Positions 1,146-54,823 of a stretch of DNA of 64,000 nt are shown here, one piece after another. This stretch comes from Elusimicrobiota bacterium (GTDB lineage Bacteria > Elusimicrobiota > UBA8919), in contig JAQUMH010000004.1 of the NCBI GenBank assembly GCA_028718185.1, forward strand, positions 136,334-200,333. The letters are read 5' to 3'. The notes under the pieces were generated by a model, which did not search any database, had not been told where the DNA came from, and was given only the letters and a program-made list of their open reading frames with translations. Both the position numbers and the translations under genes were made by a program. How positions within the stretch are numbered: position 1 is the stretch's first letter; each line of letters begins with the position of its first letter.

Positions 1146-2089
1146 GGGTTAAAACACCTTAATTTCCTATTATCATTCTCAACCAACTGTGGAACGTTCT
1201 TTAGGCATTTTTCTATTCTTCTCGGACACCTTGGATTAAACTTGCAGCCATCCGGCAACAATGCAGGTTCAGGAACATCCCCCGGTATTGTGTTAAACCT
1301 TGTTTGTTTCACATTTGCCTTAGGAATTGCCGACAAAAGTGCTTTAGTATAAGGATGAAGCGGATTTTTTAATATTTCTTTTGTATTACCTTCTTCAACA
1401 ATTTCACCTGCGTACATAACAATAATTCTGTTACACAAGTCAGAAATAATCCCAAAATTATGAGTGATAAATATTATTGTTAAATTAAGTTCTTTCGAAA
1501 GTTTCTCAAAGAGTTTAAGTATTTCTTTTTGAATTGTTACATCCAGGGCAGTAGTCGGTTCATCCGCAATAAGAATTTCAGGATTAGGTGCAAGAGCCTG
1601 AGCAATCATAACCCTTTGCCGCATTCCGCCTGATAGCTGGTGCGGGTAGGAATTTCTTATTCTTTCAGGATTATTCAACTGGACCATTTCTAAAATCTTA
1701 TTTATTTTATCTTCCGAATAATCCTTATTGTGTGCTTTAAGAGTTTCTCTTATCTGTTCGCCAATTTTTATTACAGGATTTAACGATGACAACGGGTCCT
1801 GAAAAACAAAGCCTATTTTAGCACCTCTGATTTTTCTTATTTCATCACCTTTTAGTTGTAGAATATCTTCACCATAAAAGGATATTTTTCCATTTGAGAT
1901 ATTCGCTTCTTTAGGTAAAAGATTTATTATAGAAAGCCCGAGCGTTGTTTTTCCGCAGCCGGACTCGCCAACTATTGCAAGAGAATCGGTTTTGTTTAAT
2001 GTAAATGAAACGTCCCTAACCGCAGGTATTGATTTTTCCCCTACTTTATATTCAACAAAAAGATTTTTTATAGATAAAATATCAGGCAT
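1142..2089 (-). CDS. oppD: Oligopeptide/dipeptide ABC transporter ATPase
   Basis: ATP-hydrolysing subunit of a peptide importer, on the cytoplasmic face of the membrane. The 315-residue protein has Walker A GESGCGKTT (about residues 40-48), signature LSGGMRQRV, Walker B ILIADEPTTALD and an H-loop (FITHNFG). The C-terminal oligopeptide transporter domain has Cys-containing CKFNPRCPRR, typical of OppD/DppD. Only one ATPase gene is present, whereas many Opp systems have OppD plus OppF; a second ATPase may be encoded elsewhere, or this one may act as a homodimer. The gene starts five bases after the oppC stop. Confidence 0.92.
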   Translation of the reverse strand: MPDILSIKNLFVEYKVGEKSIPAVRDVSFTLNKTDSLAIVGESGCGKTTLGLSIINLLPKEANISNGKISFYGEDILQLKGDEIRKIRGAKIGFVFQDPLSSLNPVIKIGEQIRETLKAHNKDYSEDKINKILEMVQLNNPERIRNSYPHQLSGGMRQRVMIAQALAPNPEILIADEPTTALDVTIQKEILKLFEKLSKELNLTIIFITHNFGIISDLCNRIIVMYAGEIVEEGNTKEILKNPLHPYTKALLSAIPKANVKQTRFNTIPGDVPEPALLPDGCKFNPRCPRRIEKCLKNVPQLVENDNRKLRCFNP

Positions 2090-2971: not shown

Positions 2972-3039
2972 TGTCATTCCCACGAAAGTGGGAATCCAGA
3001 AGATAAAGAAATAGATTCCGTGTCAAGCACGGAATGACA
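2972..3039. repeat. Double-hairpin repeat (GTCATTCC family) between oppB and oppC
   Basis: Two adjacent hairpins, TTCCCAC-gaaa-GTGGGAA and ATTCCGTG-tcaa-GCACGGAAT, are framed by the inverted ends TGTCATTCC and GGAATGACA. This is the layout of a small non-autonomous mobile or REP-like element. It interrupts the opp operon between two cistrons and may stabilise or attenuate the message. Confidence 0.8.
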
Positions 3040-48890: not shown

Positions 48891-49589
48891 CTACTTTGTT
48901 AGTACCATCAGGGAATATCCACCTAATAGCCTGACTGCTATGTCTTTATTTAATTTATACATCATTTTACGCGGTAATCTTGCTAATGCTGACTTAAACG
49001 AGGTGGCAGGTAAATCAATAGAACAGGCAGTATAAAAATAATCAAGTATTTCATAACCGGTATCTGCTAATGTGGCTAATGCTGTTTCTTTTGTAAAATA
49101 GTGGATATGCCCCACTTTTTGCCGCTCCCTCATTATCGGGAAGCTTCTAAAAACAGATTGAACAGACAGGTTCAACGGAATATGAAATATTTTATATTGA
49201 CCTTTTTTACGCAAATTTCTTAAAAAGCCAAAATAATCTTCTATATGTTCAAACACATCAATAGCTAAAATTAAATCAAAAAAAGCATTATTGTCCTGGA
49301 ATATATCTTTTAATAAAAACTGAAGCCTGTCTTTTTTCCTCTGCTGGCATAACTCAAACGCTTGCGGTGATATTTCATAACCTGAAAAAGTTATATTTGT
49401 AGGCATCTGAGAATACAGTTGATTAAGTATTTCACCGGCACCACAGCCTACTTCACAGATTGTGTTTGGTTGAATGCAGTTTTTCTCTAAGATTTTAATT
49501 ATTTGTCCGGCTTTCCAGGGTGAATCCTCGATATGCCATGTCGGATTATTTTTTAAATAATCGCCTTTCTTGTAAATTTCTTCTGTCAT
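48891..49589 (-). CDS. Class I SAM-dependent methyltransferase
   Basis: A 232-residue methyltransferase with the SAM-binding loop ICEVGCGAGEILNQL (about residues 44-58), FSGYEISPQAFELC and the post-II motif LILAIDVFEHIEDYFGF (about 106-122), which places it near Methyltransf_23. The substrate is unknown. It follows the arsenic efflux gene by about 35 bases, but it lacks the conserved cysteines of the arsenite methylase ArsM, so a direct arsenic role is not supported. Confidence 0.85.
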   Translation of the reverse strand: MTEEIYKKGDYLKNNPTWHIEDSPWKAGQIIKILEKNCIQPNTICEVGCGAGEILNQLYSQMPTNITFSGYEISPQAFELCQQRKKDRLQFLLKDIFQDNNAFFDLILAIDVFEHIEDYFGFLRNLRKKGQYKIFHIPLNLSVQSVFRSFPIMRERQKVGHIHYFTKETALATLADTGYEILDYFYTACSIDLPATSFKSALARLPRKMMYKLNKDIAVRLLGGYSLMVLTK

Positions 49590-49623
49590 AATAATAACGA
49601 TTTTACTTAATATTTTCTATAAA

Positions 49624-50679
49624 TCAAGATTTTGCCGGTAGAAAATATTTCTTTTTAAAATACAAAGCTAAATTTACTAAGGTAATTAGAACAGGGACTT
49701 CTACCAAAGGACCAATTATTGCGGTAAAAGCAACACCTGAATTTATTCCAAAAACAGCAATAGAAACTGCTATCGCCAGTTCAAAATTGTTGCTTGCGGC
49801 AGTAAAAGAAAGGGTTGCAGTTTTACAGTAACCTGCACCAATCTTGTTTCCCATGTAAAACGAGACCAGAAACATAATTACAAAATAGAGCAAAAGCGGA
49901 ATGGCAATCCTTAAAACATCCATGGGTATTTTTACAATATATTCTCCTTTAAGTGAAAACATTACGACTATTGTAAAAAGAAGTGCAATAAGCGTTATCG
50001 GGCTTATCCTTGGAATAAATTCCGCATGGTACCACTCTTTACTTTTGATTTTGAGCAATCTGAAACGGGTTATTATTCCTGCTAAAAACGGAATACCGAG
50101 ATAGATAAAAACACTTTTTGCTATCTGCCCGATAGTTATATTTACAACTGCACCTTTAAGTCCGAACCAACCCGGCAAAATTGTTACAAAAACATAAGCA
50201 TAAACGGAAAAAAACAGGACCTGAAAAATTGAGTTAAAAGCAACCAGTCCGGCACAATATTCTGTGTCCCCGCAAGCTAAATCATTCCAGACAATTACCA
50301 TTGCAATACATCTTGCAAGACCAATCATAATAAGTCCGACCATATATTCCGGGTAATTTCTTAAAAATATTATCGCCAGAAGAAACATTAAAACCGGGCC
50401 TATGAGCCAGTTTTGAACAAGTGAGAGTATAAGAATTTTGACATCCTTGAAAACATCACCAAGCTCTTCATATTTCACCTTTGCCAAAGGCGGATACATC
50501 ATAAGGATAAGACCTATTGCTATTGGGATGTTTGTTGTTCCAACCTGAAATTTATCCCAGAAACTAACAATATTCGGATAAAGATATCCTGAAAAAACAC
50601 CGATACCCATTGCTAAAAATATCCATAATGTCAAATACCTGTCTAAAAATGAAATCCGTTTTATAATCCCTTCTGTCAT
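49624..50679 (-). CDS. acr3: Arsenite efflux transporter, Acr3 family
   Basis: Exports arsenite across the cytoplasmic membrane using the proton gradient. The protein of about 351 residues has ten membrane helices. Hallmarks are [19 protein letters not shown] (about residues 120-138, with the essential Cys of helix 4), [15 protein letters not shown] and [17 protein letters not shown] (about 289-305). I start it at the ATG 50677-50679, which has GGAGG five bases upstream; the TTG four codons earlier lies on that site. Last ars gene, behind a hairpin. Confidence 0.94.
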
Positions 50680-50702
50680 CGCTGCCTCCAAAAGTGTGGG
50701 CT

Positions 50703-50740
50703 ACCCCCCTAGTTTTGTTCTGCAAAACTGTCAAGGGGGT
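50703..50740. other. Inter-cistronic hairpin between ccdA-like and acr3
   Basis: Inner arms AGTTTTG and CAAAACT around a 5-base loop, with outer arms ACCCCC and GGGGGT. It lies just upstream of the acr3 ribosome binding site. There is no T tract on the minus strand, so a role in message stability or in setting the level of acr3 is more likely than termination. Confidence 0.65.
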
Positions 50741-50769
50741 ATTTATTTTGCATTCATGTATTTGATAAA

Positions 50770-51477
50770 TTAAAAGGTTTTCTGCAAAAAAATATAAATT
50801 CCTGCTAAAACGACAAGTATACCGCAAATTTTCTTTATTATTATTGTGCCTTTAGATTTTTCGTTCCAATCCAGATATTTTTGAACAACCCCTGTAAATG
50901 TTCCTGCAAAAACTATTACTGATATATGACCAATCGCATATGCGAAAACAAGTGATACCGCAAATGCAATATTTTTACCTGCTACGGAAAACGCCACACC
51001 TAACAGAGGCGCCATAAATGCAAAGGTACAAGGTCCTAAGGCAATGCCGAATATCAATCCCATTACAAAAGCTGCGAACAACCCCTTTTTTGAAAAAGAA
51101 ACCTGCGCTGAATTATTTAAAAACGGAAGAGAAATCACATCAAGCAGATATAATCCTACTACAAAAAATATTACAGCTACAAAATAATTGCCATAAACAC
51201 CTACATCACCCAACATTCTGCCAAGCAATCCGGTTAATACTCCAATTACAGCAATTGTTATAAGAATTCCGGTAGAAAACAGCAGCGATATTAAGAAAGC
51301 TCTCTTTACAGGAACTTTACCTTGTCCGTTTATAAAACCGACTATCAACGGAATACTCGAAAGATGACACGGGGAAAGAAGAATACTTAATATTCCCCAC
51401 ACAAAAGCAGAAAAAACTGCAATATGCGGACTGGAATGCAGAGCATTTGTGAAATAAATAAATATTTTTTCTATCAT
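50770..51477 (-). CDS. CcdA/DsbD-type thiol transporter
   Basis: Moves reducing power across the membrane to extracytoplasmic thioredoxin-like proteins. The 235-residue protein has six membrane helices of the DsbD TM domain. The hallmark LSPCHLSSIPLIVGFINGQGK (about residues 35-55) holds the first redox Cys and ALGPCTFAFMAPLLG (about 146-160) the second. It sits between the permease and acr3 genes and probably reduces the lipoprotein thioredoxin encoded in the same operon. Confidence 0.9.
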   Translation of the reverse strand: MIEKIFIYFTNALHSSPHIAVFSAFVWGILSILLSPCHLSSIPLIVGFINGQGKVPVKRAFLISLLFSTGILITIAVIGVLTGLLGRMLGDVGVYGNYFVAVIFFVVGLYLLDVISLPFLNNSAQVSFSKKGLFAAFVMGLIFGIALGPCTFAFMAPLLGVAFSVAGKNIAFAVSLVFAYAIGHISVIVFAGTFTGVVQKYLDWNEKSKGTIIIKKICGILVVLAGIYIFLQKTF

Positions 51478-51489
51478 TTTTCAAAAAAA

Positions 51490-52458
51490 TCAGATAAGCA
51501 TGTTGAATAAATAACCCATCAGAATAATCCCGACGGAAACAATACCGACAAAAACAGCAAGCAGTTTTGGTTTTAATACTTTTCTCAGCAGAATCATTTC
51601 AGGCAAGCTGAGCCCGGTAACTGCCATCATAAACACAAGCGATGTTCCCATTGCGACACCTGCCCGCGTTAATTCACTGACAAGAGGAATCACTCCCGCG
51701 GCATTGGAGTAAAGCGGAACTCCAATCGCAACTGCAATAAGTACTGCAAACGGATTGTCTTTTCCCGCATATTTTGCGAGCGCACCAGCGGGGATCCAAC
51801 CATGCATGACTGCGCCGATACCTATACCTGCTAAAACATAAATATAAATGGATTTTATCAAATCAACTGTGAATAGATAAGATTCCGACACTCTGTTTTT
51901 TAATAATACTTTTTCTAAAGTTACTGCAGAAGCGTCTATTTTTATTTTATAAACATAATCTTCAACATATTTTTCCAGATTCAATTTGCCAATAACAATG
52001 CCGCTCACAATTGCAATAATCTCACCCGTTAGTACGTAAATCACTGCGATTTTAAATCCGAAAAGACTGTAAAGAAGACCCAGCGCCACTTCGTTAATCA
52101 TAGGAGCTGCTACAAGATACGTGAAAGTGACACCCAACGGTATTCCCGCCTCGACAAAACCGATGAATAACGGCACGGCAGAACAAGAGCAGAACGGAGT
52201 TACTATGCCCAGCCCGCCTGCCAATAAATGACCGATAAAAGTGCTGCCTTTTTTTTCGGAGAGAATCTTTCGGGTTTTCTCAGGAGGAAAAAAACTTCTT
52301 ATAAGGGTAATTAAATAGATGATGATAAAAAGGAGAATAAATATTTTAATCGTATCAAAGAAGAAGAAGTTCACTGCCGACCCGATAGAGTTCTCAGGAA
52401 CAAGATTAATAACCTTATATGTAAACCAATCGACTAATATCTGTAACCAATTAAAAAT
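51490..52458 (-). CDS. Permease of the SO_0444/DUF318 (ArsP-like) type, probable ATT start
   Basis: Membrane permease of the family often next to arsenic genes, thought to export organoarsenicals or metals. The protein has about eight membrane helices; FCSCSAVPLFIGFVEAGIPLGVTF (about residues 84-107 of the long form) carries the conserved Cys pair. A GTG at 52374 would cut off the conserved NWLQILVDWFTYKV N-terminus. The open frame reaches an in-frame stop at 52468-52470 and the only suitable codon is ATT at 52456-52458, five bases after AAGGAG. The stop of the upstream gene overlaps that site (TAAGGAG). Confidence 0.85.
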   Translation of the reverse strand: MFNWLQILVDWFTYKVINLVPENSIGSAVNFFFFDTIKIFILLFIIIYLITLIRSFFPPEKTRKILSEKKGSTFIGHLLAGGLGIVTPFCSCSAVPLFIGFVEAGIPLGVTFTYLVAAPMINEVALGLLYSLFGFKIAVIYVLTGEIIAIVSGIVIGKLNLEKYVEDYVYKIKIDASAVTLEKVLLKNRVSESYLFTVDLIKSIYIYVLAGIGIGAVMHGWIPAGALAKYAGKDNPFAVLIAVAIGVPLYSNAAGVIPLVSELTRAGVAMGTSLVFMMAVTGLSLPEMILLRKVLKPKLLAVFVGIVSVGIILMGYLFNMLI

Positions 52459-52467
52459 AAAAGCTCC

Positions 52468-52950
52468 TTATTTCACGTTGATTTTTACACCATGAGCTCC
52501 AAATATCTTTAGTATTTCTTCTTTAGAAAAAAATCCCTCATGCCTGAAAAACTCTTTTTCTTTTTCATCAAGAAAAACCTGAGTAGGTATAAGATTTATT
52601 CTGTATTTTTCCACATACGGTCTACCTTCTTGTGTCCATACATCATAAAACACAACTTTTACCTGATTGCCGTATTCTTTTGTTATTTCTTTCATTACAG
52701 GTTGCATCATTTTACAAGGGATACAATTCACGGAACCCAGTTCTACAAAAGTAACCATTGTTTTTTGTTTTTCTGATGTTTTATCAACAGGTCTGCCTAT
52801 CTGTGTTTTTTTTGTTCCGTTTTCAATTCTGACAGTTTGAGCAGGAGTATTTTTTGTTTCATTGATTGGTAACAGTTCATTTTTTTTATTACAACCGGTT
52901 AACACAAAACACAATAACATAATATATAATAATTTATTTTTAAATTTCAT
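52468..52950 (-). CDS. Thioredoxin-fold lipoprotein
   Basis: A 160-residue extracytoplasmic lipoprotein: the signal peptide ends in LTGC (Cys20), then a Lys/Thr-rich linker, then a thioredoxin domain with active site CIPC (Cys76-Cys79) and cis-Pro segment INLIPTQVFLDEKEKEFF. It is probably reduced by the CcdA-like protein of the same operon. Its target outside the membrane could be the permease or another thiol protein; not determinable here. Confidence 0.88.
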   Translation of the reverse strand: MKFKNKLLYIMLLCFVLTGCNKKNELLPINETKNTPAQTVRIENGTKKTQIGRPVDKTSEKQKTMVTFVELGSVNCIPCKMMQPVMKEITKEYGNQVKVVFYDVWTQEGRPYVEKYRINLIPTQVFLDEKEKEFFRHEGFFSKEEILKIFGAHGVKINVK

Positions 52951-53025
52951 TTTATTACTCCTTCGTTTTAATGGTTACCCGCAATAGCAGCAATCACTAA
53001 TATCATTTTTGTCTTTCTTGTTATA

Positions 53026-53259
53026 TTATTTTTTTATCCAGTTTTTTATTTCTTCTTTTGACGGGATTCTTCCGGCTACTTTCACAACCCCATCAATTAC
53101 AAGTGCAGGTGTTAACATAACACCGTAGTTCATAATATCCTGTATCTTATCCACTTTTACTATTTCTGCTGTTACCCCAAGTTCCCTGACAGATTCTCTC
53201 GTTAACTCAGTTAGTTTTTCACACTTAGGACAGCCAGTTCCAAGAATTTCAAGTTTCAT
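53026..53259 (-). CDS. Small thioredoxin-like redox protein (TIGR00412 type)
   Basis: A 77-residue cytoplasmic protein with CPKC near the N-terminus (LGTGCPKCEKLTEL) and a cis-Pro region (MLTPALVIDGVVKVAG). These small glutaredoxin/thioredoxin hybrids are common beside permease and arsenic genes. It is a good candidate for the electron donor to ArsC, encoded in the same operon. Confidence 0.9.
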   Translation of the reverse strand: MKLEILGTGCPKCEKLTELTRESVRELGVTAEIVKVDKIQDIMNYGVMLTPALVIDGVVKVAGRIPSKEEIKNWIKK

Positions 53260-53301
53260 AGACTTCCCTCTGTTAGTTCATAAACTATTTTTACCATTAA
53301 G

Positions 53302-53865
53302 TTAGTCATCTTCTTTTAAAAAGATTGAAAGTGTTTTATATCCACATTGTTTCATTAAGTTTAGTAATATATCCCTTTTTTCATTAAATTTTCCGGAAAA
53401 CAAATCTGCACAAGTCATTATGTGCTTTTCTTCTGCTGCGAGTTTTATTGCAAATGCCGTACAGGTGATTTCACCGCATTTTTTACAATTCGTCAAAGGC
53501 ATAAGTTTTAAAATGTCAAGTACCGTAAGTTTTTTTCTTCTTTCATAGTTAGGTTTTATAGCGTCCTTTTTGCTATAAGTGTTATTCACTAAATCTCTGA
53601 ACCAATTTATCAGATTGTCGGCATCCTTTAGGTCAATTACTTTTCCTGCGGAAAGCTGTCTCCCGTGAATTCCTATTAACCTGTCATCTTTTTTAAGGGT
53701 TATATTATGTCCGTCATGATTATATATAGCTCCTTCTAAAACACTGTTAAGATACGGCAACACTTCAGATATATCCCTGTCAAGTTCAGATATAAATCTA
53801 ATTGTTCCCGGTTTTGCTACACAGGGCAAAACACTAATAATCCTTATTTCATTTAAATATGCCAT
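53302..53865 (-). CDS. Four-cysteine FeS-domain protein of the ars operon
   Basis: A 187-residue protein whose C-terminal part has the FeS domain (PF04060 type) also seen in acetyl-CoA synthase subunits: LTNCKKCGEITCTAFAIKLAAEE (about residues 126-148) with a fourth Cys in IMTCADLF. The N-terminal 100 residues (VLPCVAKPGTIRFISELDR) are of no family I can name. It starts at the base after the arsC stop, so it is coupled to ArsC. It could feed electrons to arsenate reduction or sense arsenite; both are inference. Confidence 0.8.
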   Translation of the reverse strand: MAYLNEIRIISVLPCVAKPGTIRFISELDRDISEVLPYLNSVLEGAIYNHDGHNITLKKDDRLIGIHGRQLSAGKVIDLKDADNLINWFRDLVNNTYSKKDAIKPNYERRKKLTVLDILKLMPLTNCKKCGEITCTAFAIKLAAEEKHIMTCADLFSGKFNEKRDILLNLMKQCGYKTLSIFLKEDD

Positions 53866-54291
53866 TTAATTTATAGAAATAGATTCAATAAGCTGAATTA
53901 CATTATCTTTTATTTTATCTCTTATCATTCGGAATCCCGATAGTATCTCTTGTTCTGTTCCCTTAAACTGAGCAGGATCATCTAAATCCCAGTGCAATCT
54001 TATTGAGTTTCCGGGAAAATACGGACATTCTTGTCTTGCGCTTTCGCAAAGAGTGATTATGTAATCAAATTTCTGTCCGGTATATTCTTTGACATTCTTT
54101 GACTTTTGTTTCGAAATATCTATTCCGATTTCAGCCATAGTTATTATTGCATATTTATTAACATACGTCGGATTTATGCCCGCACTAAATGCCAGAACTT
54201 TATTTTTGCCATAAATATTTGCCAACCCTTCTGCCATTTGGCTTCTACAAGAATTTCCAGTACACAAAAAAAGTATTTTTTTAATATTCAT
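53866..54291 (-). CDS. arsC: Arsenate reductase, thioredoxin-coupled type
   Basis: Reduces arsenate to arsenite, which Acr3 then exports. The 141-residue protein has the low-molecular-weight phosphatase loop CTGNSCR (nucleophile Cys10, Arg16) and the cysteines Cys82 and Cys89 in LCESARQECPYFPG. This Cys10/82/89 triad and spacing match the thioredoxin-dependent plasmid pI258-type enzymes. The DLDDPAQ motif supplies the general acid Asp. Confidence 0.94.
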   Translation of the reverse strand: MNIKKILFLCTGNSCRSQMAEGLANIYGKNKVLAFSAGINPTYVNKYAIITMAEIGIDISKQKSKNVKEYTGQKFDYIITLCESARQECPYFPGNSIRLHWDLDDPAQFKGTEQEILSGFRMIRDKIKDNVIQLIESISIN

Positions 54292-54442
54292 TTTTTTACA
54301 TCACTCTATGTTGATGTTGAGAATTATTTCCACAAAGGTGTCCTTTGGACAACAGACACTAACTAAAATAGTCCTGCATAAATCATTCCGGTAAAAGTCG
54401 TCTTTACCTTTACAAGTTATAATCAATAAATATTTTGCTCTT

Positions 54443-54823
54443 TCATTTGCATCCTTTTCTATTTTGCAGACAACTAACTATTATTTTCCCGTTTTTTCTC
54501 AATTTAAGACGTTTTTTCAGTCGTTCACTATCTTTATTAAAATTAGTTTGTGATATTGATTTTAATGTTTTCAGTATATTTTCATGAAACTTACTTTTCG
54601 GTTGAATTAATGAATAGAAAACATATCTTCCTTCTTTTTTTTCCTTTACAAGTCCTGCAATTTTGAGTTCCCTCACATGCTTAGAAACATTATACTGTGC
54701 CAGCTTAAGCGTATCCATTATTTCACATATACACAACTCGCATTTTGCCTTTAATAAAAGCTGTATTATCCTTATTCTCGTTCTATCTGAAAGTGATTTA
54801 AAAGTTCCGATATATTTATCCAT
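54443..54823 (-). CDS. arsR: ArsR-family repressor
   Basis: A 126-residue winged-helix repressor that should leave DNA when arsenite binds. The metalloid site CELCICE (Cys28, Cys31, Cys33) lies in the DNA-recognition helix region, followed by LAQYNVSKHVRELKIAGLV (recognition helix) and KEGRYVFYSL (wing). First gene of the ars operon, with an AAGGAG site. A gap of about 150 bases separates it from arsC; I see nothing in it. Confidence 0.93.
   Translation of the reverse strand: MDKYIGTFKSLSDRTRIRIIQLLLKAKCELCICEIMDTLKLAQYNVSKHVRELKIAGLVKEKKEGRYVFYSLIQPKSKFHENILKTLKSISQTNFNKDSERLKKRLKLRKNGKIIVSCLQNRKGCK

Follow-up and report, generated by a model that had tools for sequence, protein, structure and literature searches.

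The window analyzed in this study, a stretch of 64,000 nucleotides from an Elusimicrobiota bacterium (the genome and its permease protein are both designated G000), carries on its minus strand a series of genes headed by that for an ArsR/SmtB-family regulator (positions 54443–54823; NF033788, 75.1 bits against a cut-off of 55). This gene is followed by those for an arsenate-reductase-like protein with an LMW phosphatase fold (53866–54291; PF01451, with a TIGR02691 score of 146.2 bits that is below the cut-off of 174.3), an Fe-S cluster protein (53302–53865; PF04060), a thioredoxin-like protein of the MTH895/ArsE family (53026–53259; TIGR00412, 107.3 bits, cut-off 62), and another thioredoxin-like protein, presumably a lipoprotein given its LTGC motif (52468–52950). 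The permease gene examined here comes next (51490–52458; 322 amino acids if read from ATT), and downstream of it are genes for a DsbD/CcdA-like membrane protein (50770–51477; PF02683) and an ACR3 arsenite efflux transporter (49624–50691; TIGR00832, 453.7 bits, cut-off 282.8). A methyltransferase also is part of this neighborhood, and the identities of these neighbors together indicate an arsenic-resistance operon. The permease itself matches the Pfam ArsP_1 family (PF03773) with 224.7 bits, where the gathering cut-off is 32.3, and the domain spans residues 25 to 319. Its scores are below the NCBIfam cut-offs for SaoE (119.8 versus 325) and for SO_0444 Cu-Zn efflux proteins (95.1 versus 300). 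From the gene context, the substrate is likely to be an arsenical.

Among the proteins found, the permease is closest to those of Clostridia and methanogens (65–74% identity), and it shares at most 58% identity with any recovered from its phylum. This distribution suggests that the operon, which extends from 48891 to 54823, may have been acquired by horizontal transfer. Among the closest relatives, described below, locus L100 matches the window in gene order, with an ArsR-like protein followed by an ArsE-like thioredoxin and then the permease, where the gene names were assigned by reading and by similarity to the ArsE-like protein of the window.

The junction between the thioredoxin-like lipoprotein gene and the permease gene reads GTG AAA TAA GGA GCT TTT ATT TTT AAT TGG TTA CAG on the minus strand. 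The TAA stop codon of the upstream gene (52470–52468) is in the same frame as the permease, and only three codons (GGA GCT TTT) separate it from ATT, such that the upstream gene ends 9 nt before the ATT triplet (52456–52458). As the initial annotation had claimed, reading of the sequence revealed no ATG, GTG, or TTG in frame ahead of the conserved N-terminus, since none is present between TAA and the GTG at 52374–52372. This GTG, located 28 codons past ATT, is the first canonical in-frame codon and the rival start. The further claim that ATT is located five bases from an AAGGAG overlapping the upstream stop also was borne out, with all coordinates correct. The distance from the 3′ end of AAGGAG to ATT is 5 nt, and the TAA of the stop codon lengthens this Shine-Dalgarno (SD) match to the 7-nt sequence TAAGGAG (52464–52470). 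In contrast, an SD match of at least 5 nt is absent at the rival GTG.

Relatives of the permease were gathered from public genomes, and 146 loci were compared, of which 120 gave a match reaching the N-terminal region, 2 gave a late-beginning match, and 117 were non-redundant. A total of 26 rows, including the query, retain three or all four of the residues F2, Q6, D10, and Y14. The codon at the ATT column in these rows is ATG in 22 cases, with GTG, TTG, GTC, and ATT occurring once each, and the single ATT is that of the query itself. Thus, 22 of the 25 non-query rows with a conserved N-terminus carry ATG at this column. The TTG row (L035) has an ATG three codons on, and the GTC row is L044, where the column is at base 3001. 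The initial annotation had proposed looking for ATG at this codon in relatives, and all seven of the closest bacterial relatives (L100, L031, L101, L102, L103, L207, and L208; 70–74% identity) indeed have ATG TTT there. One of these (L031) is Caloramator proteoclasticus, and a search of 391 genomes of the class to which the Caloramator genome belongs added L207 and L208, each with approximately 70% identity. Among viral contigs, no relative of the permease was found, as six stretches fit a pattern and none of these encodes one.

The presence of ATG at the same column in the nearest relatives identifies ATT as the start by homology and makes ATG the most likely ancestral codon. The permease gene lacks a canonical codon before its conserved N-terminus and has, at SD distance, a codon homologous to the ATG of its relatives, as do AUU-start genes. 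Across 18 aligned rows, residues F2, Q6, D10, W11, and Y14 show little or no variation, and all five are kept in G000 and precede the GTG. Note that retention of a weak start among close relatives, which is a feature of the IF3-controlled genes infC and sigR, is not observed for the permease, given that the seven nearest relatives use ATG. The ATT codon is known from one assembly (27 contigs, 96.7% complete), and a second member of the genus was not present among the genomes searched.

The strength of the SD site was evaluated against 61 ORFs of at least 100 amino acids from the window, which constitute a simple ORF set and not the output of a gene finder. The permease is the sole ORF of the 61 in which a near-cognate codon with an SD match of at least 5 nt precedes the first canonical start by more than two codons, and three other ORFs have such a near-cognate site one or two codons ahead of theirs. 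Its 7-nt match is among the three strongest in this set, with a longer match only at the 41726 site (8 nt) and one of the same length only at 54823 (7 nt). For comparison, 7 of 727 interior in-frame ATT codons in the window ORFs are preceded by an SD match of at least 6 nt. No canonical codon with an SD match of at least 5 nt was found in the first 600 nt of the permease frame, and RNA folding revealed no stable structure over the start site or the upstream stop (z of +0.47). The anti-SD could not be read because the 16S rRNA gene was not found in the 96.7% complete assembly. However, the same search missed this gene in 5 of 14 control genomes, so the failure to find it here may be due to the search itself.

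Near-cognate starts of the infC kind appear to be native to this lineage. In G000, the conserved start position of infC reads AGGGGGTGG TGTAAA ATC GCA AAA (L096, approximately 2001–2005, minus strand), and the gene appears to start with ATC. A GTG is located 22 codons upstream of this position, and a terminator-like hairpin was recognized by eye between the two. The infC position is occupied by ATT in all eight relatives inspected, namely seven searched genomes of the family and one of the order (L178–L185), with the ATT of L179 falling one codon further on, and six of these eight genes lack a canonical in-frame start before ATT. In a separate observation, for a different family of this phylum (f3; loci L148–L150, L152–L156, L163, L165, and L170), the codon where infC is expected to start is ATA, GTA, or GTC and follows a GGAGG-like site by a few nucleotides, and a GTA start would be very unusual.

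The homology of the codon, the strong SD site, and the ATT or ATC starts of infC in this genome and its order all support the original proposal that the permease start is ATT. We consider it probable, at roughly 0.82, that the permease is translated from ATT 52456–52458.

Among the competing explanations, one shares the old start place with translation from ATT but holds that the loss of ATG was the first step of gene decay and that expression is now negligible. Some features of the protein are in keeping with this view. The N-terminal segment is slightly more diverged than expected: in a comparison of the 27 residues ahead of the GTG with eleven rows belonging to other families within the phylum, the closer protein was L100 in nine cases and G000 in one, with one tie, although L044 gives the opposite result. 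This greater divergence could be a weak hint of relaxed constraint, perhaps after the ATG was lost. The G000 branch also is long (0.52). Nevertheless, the other 294 residues are about as conserved in G000 as in L100, all 322 codons are open with no stop or frameshift, and the surrounding operon is intact. We therefore regard decay as unlikely.

It is less likely still that ATG is the real start and that the G-to-T difference arose as a base-call or consensus error or reflects variation between strains. The occurrence of ATT in one assembly only and of ATG in the closest relatives would be expected in this case, but the assembly appears to be of good quality, the frame is otherwise intact, and substitution errors in assemblies are rare.

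Initiation at the GTG (52374) would yield a protein of 294 amino acids in which the first hydrophobic segment is still present but the conserved N-terminal segment is missing. This codon is the sole canonical in-frame start near the N-terminus, and because the Pfam domain begins at residue 25, the shorter protein would keep nearly the whole of it. Moreover, a distant relative (L014, 40% identity) seems to lack the N-terminal segment. However, the strong SD site precedes ATT and not GTG, and a GTG start would remove the five near-invariant residues from an N-terminal motif that has retained them, which makes this alternative very improbable. Finally, readthrough of the in-frame TAA to produce a thioredoxin–permease fusion is suggested by the shared frame and the short three-codon interval, but we give it almost no credence because there is no stable structure around the stop, the SD site and the homologous ATG indicate a separate start, and no thioredoxin gene is fused in front of the permease in L100 or L031.

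Apparent weak starts are also found among the archaeal relatives of the permease. Ten homologues come from the family of a genome labeled Methanospirillum (L044), where the methanogen status of the others is taken from family membership. A survey of 232 genomes of that order yielded no close methanogen homologue beyond these ten, and one genome has an additional, incomplete copy (L218) whose match does not include the N-terminal part. All ten seem to begin one codon earlier than the ATT column, with a start codon followed by GTC, GTA, or GTG and then by TTT GAA or TTT GAG. The apparent start is ATG in four, GTG in two, CTG in three (L044, L193, and L194), and ACG in one (L191), and each of the four weak starts is located 5 to 8 nt behind an SD match of 6 to 8 nt. 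For L193, there is no canonical codon from the upstream stop to codon +8. For L044, L191, and L194, translation could begin instead at a canonical GTG that falls within the SD, four codons upstream; however, L192, L195, and L196 carry the same GTG despite having a canonical start downstream, so this GTG is probably part of the SD. The divergent ArsR-type genes beside the permeases of L044, L191, L193, L194, and L196 align on a TTG start.

The 18 closest homologues group together on the phylogenetic tree as a clade (support 98/92) in which the starts are ATG (11), CTG (3), GTG (2), ACG (1), and ATT (1), and the distribution of CTG requires two changes. A neighboring gene was judged only if its match extended as far as the start, and those excluded on this basis include, for example, the L188 ArsR, the further small protein of L188–L190, and genes that lie beyond the stretches retrieved for L031 and L193. 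The judged starts are ATG in 16 of 16 ArsE-like thioredoxins and in 9 of 9 copies of a 91-aa protein, ATG (6) or TTG (5) in 11 ArsR genes, and ATG (5) or GTG (1) in six copies of a further small protein. Apparent weak starts are therefore present in 5 of 18 members of the permease clade versus 0 of 42 judged neighbor genes, for which the Fisher value of 0.0016 is indicative only because the rows are related by descent and not independent. Only G000 and L193 of the five have no canonical alternative of any kind, and 2 of 18 versus 0 of 42 is not significant (approximately 0.09, computed by hand).

Our searches of the open-licence literature, including searches for arsenic together with weak start codons, returned no report of a weak start in the ArsP_1 family. 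The methanogen relatives that appear to start with CTG (three) or ACG (one) are new to this work. To our knowledge, archaea do not have the bacterial IF3, and thus IF3 cannot be the common reason for the weak starts. One tentative interpretation, which we consider possible but doubtful, is that this subfamily repeatedly swaps ATG for a weak start behind a strong SD (ATT here, CTG or ACG in methanogens) while the neighboring ars genes stay canonical, and that the supply of the pump would thereby be limited by a convergent translational throttle, which operates in archaea as well as bacteria and does not depend on IF3 alone.

A mechanism can be outlined for translation from ATT. The codon would have arisen from ATG most simply by one G-to-T change and would be read by the initiator fMet-tRNA. 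The long SD with its 5-nt spacer, along with the upstream stop 9 nt away, would bring ribosomes to the site, partly by termination–reinitiation, and the dose of the pump would be expected to be lower than that of the other ars operon proteins. Both the coupling and the lowered dose are what we infer from this arrangement, and a role for the weak start as a dose throttle is plausible. The initial annotation had suggested, by analogy with infC and pcnB, where IF3 senses the ATT start, that this may be a weak start used for control, and modulation of the permease by IF3 would be one possible form of this. Control of dose would fit the repeated occurrence of apparent weak starts in this subfamily, and the archaeal cases would raise the chance that a low dose is selected. 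Published work bears on these steps. Reinitiation drops steeply with distance (PMC10666635), and the 9-nt separation would therefore allow partial coupling at best. The same source quotes a figure of approximately 0.3% for ATT from a study of all 64 codons in Escherichia coli (Hecht 2017, as quoted in PMC10666635). Low yet detectable product from ATT starts is described for Listeria rsbW (PMC13068326), and the AUU start of Staphylococcus aureus cvfC1, which has an extended SD, works at a low level (PMC13009471). Repression of a weak start by IF3 is described for Streptomyces sigR (PMC5472188), and excess IF3 in E. coli is described as lowering reinitiation too, less so when an SD is present (PMC2268962).

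Several known systems offer comparisons. The infC gene, which encodes IF3 and starts with ATT, ATC, or ATA, resembles the permease in that a near-cognate codon behind a strong SD stands at the conserved N-terminus, where a canonical start is lacking, and the same lineage carries ATC or ATT there. However, IF3 autoregulation is established and widespread, whereas the permease ATT is found in one bacterium and is known from its sequence. Binns and Masters reportedly found in 2002 that the AUU start of E. coli pcnB limits expression; this gene likewise has an AUU start outside infC, but it encodes a poly(A) polymerase and not an efflux permease, and in another organism. The cvfC1 gene shares both AUU and an unusually long SD with the permease, but as its report describes, it is conserved in Staphylococci and its start was mapped by ribosome profiling, whereas the permease start is deduced by comparison (PMC13009471). 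The sigR gene also is stress-related, with a weak GTC start and a long SD, AGGAGGTG. This GTC is kept in 32 of 34 Streptomyces and was genetically tested, unlike the permease ATT, which is absent from near relatives (PMC5472188). In the rsbW mutants of Listeria, a single ATG-to-ATT change lowers the dose of one operon protein, as might be the case here, but those mutants came from laboratory selection, and ATT there is described as giving the lowest but still detectable expression (PMC13068326).

ATT starts are already known for a handful of genes, and the permease is probably a further case. Most gene finders accept only ATG, GTG, and TTG, so the permease would be annotated 28 residues short and any regulation at its start would be missed. 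A reconstruction over 36 genome groups reports that, of 61,358 ancestral AUG starts, one changed to AUU and two to CUG (PMC5622118). Because such changes are so rare, a small family in which they happen repeatedly would be well suited to finding out whether selection favors weak starts. The subfamily pattern was unexpected and is worth a proper survey, and with a set of homologues that carry ATG, GTG, CTG, ACG, and ATT, the question of selection is directly testable by a one-codon swap.
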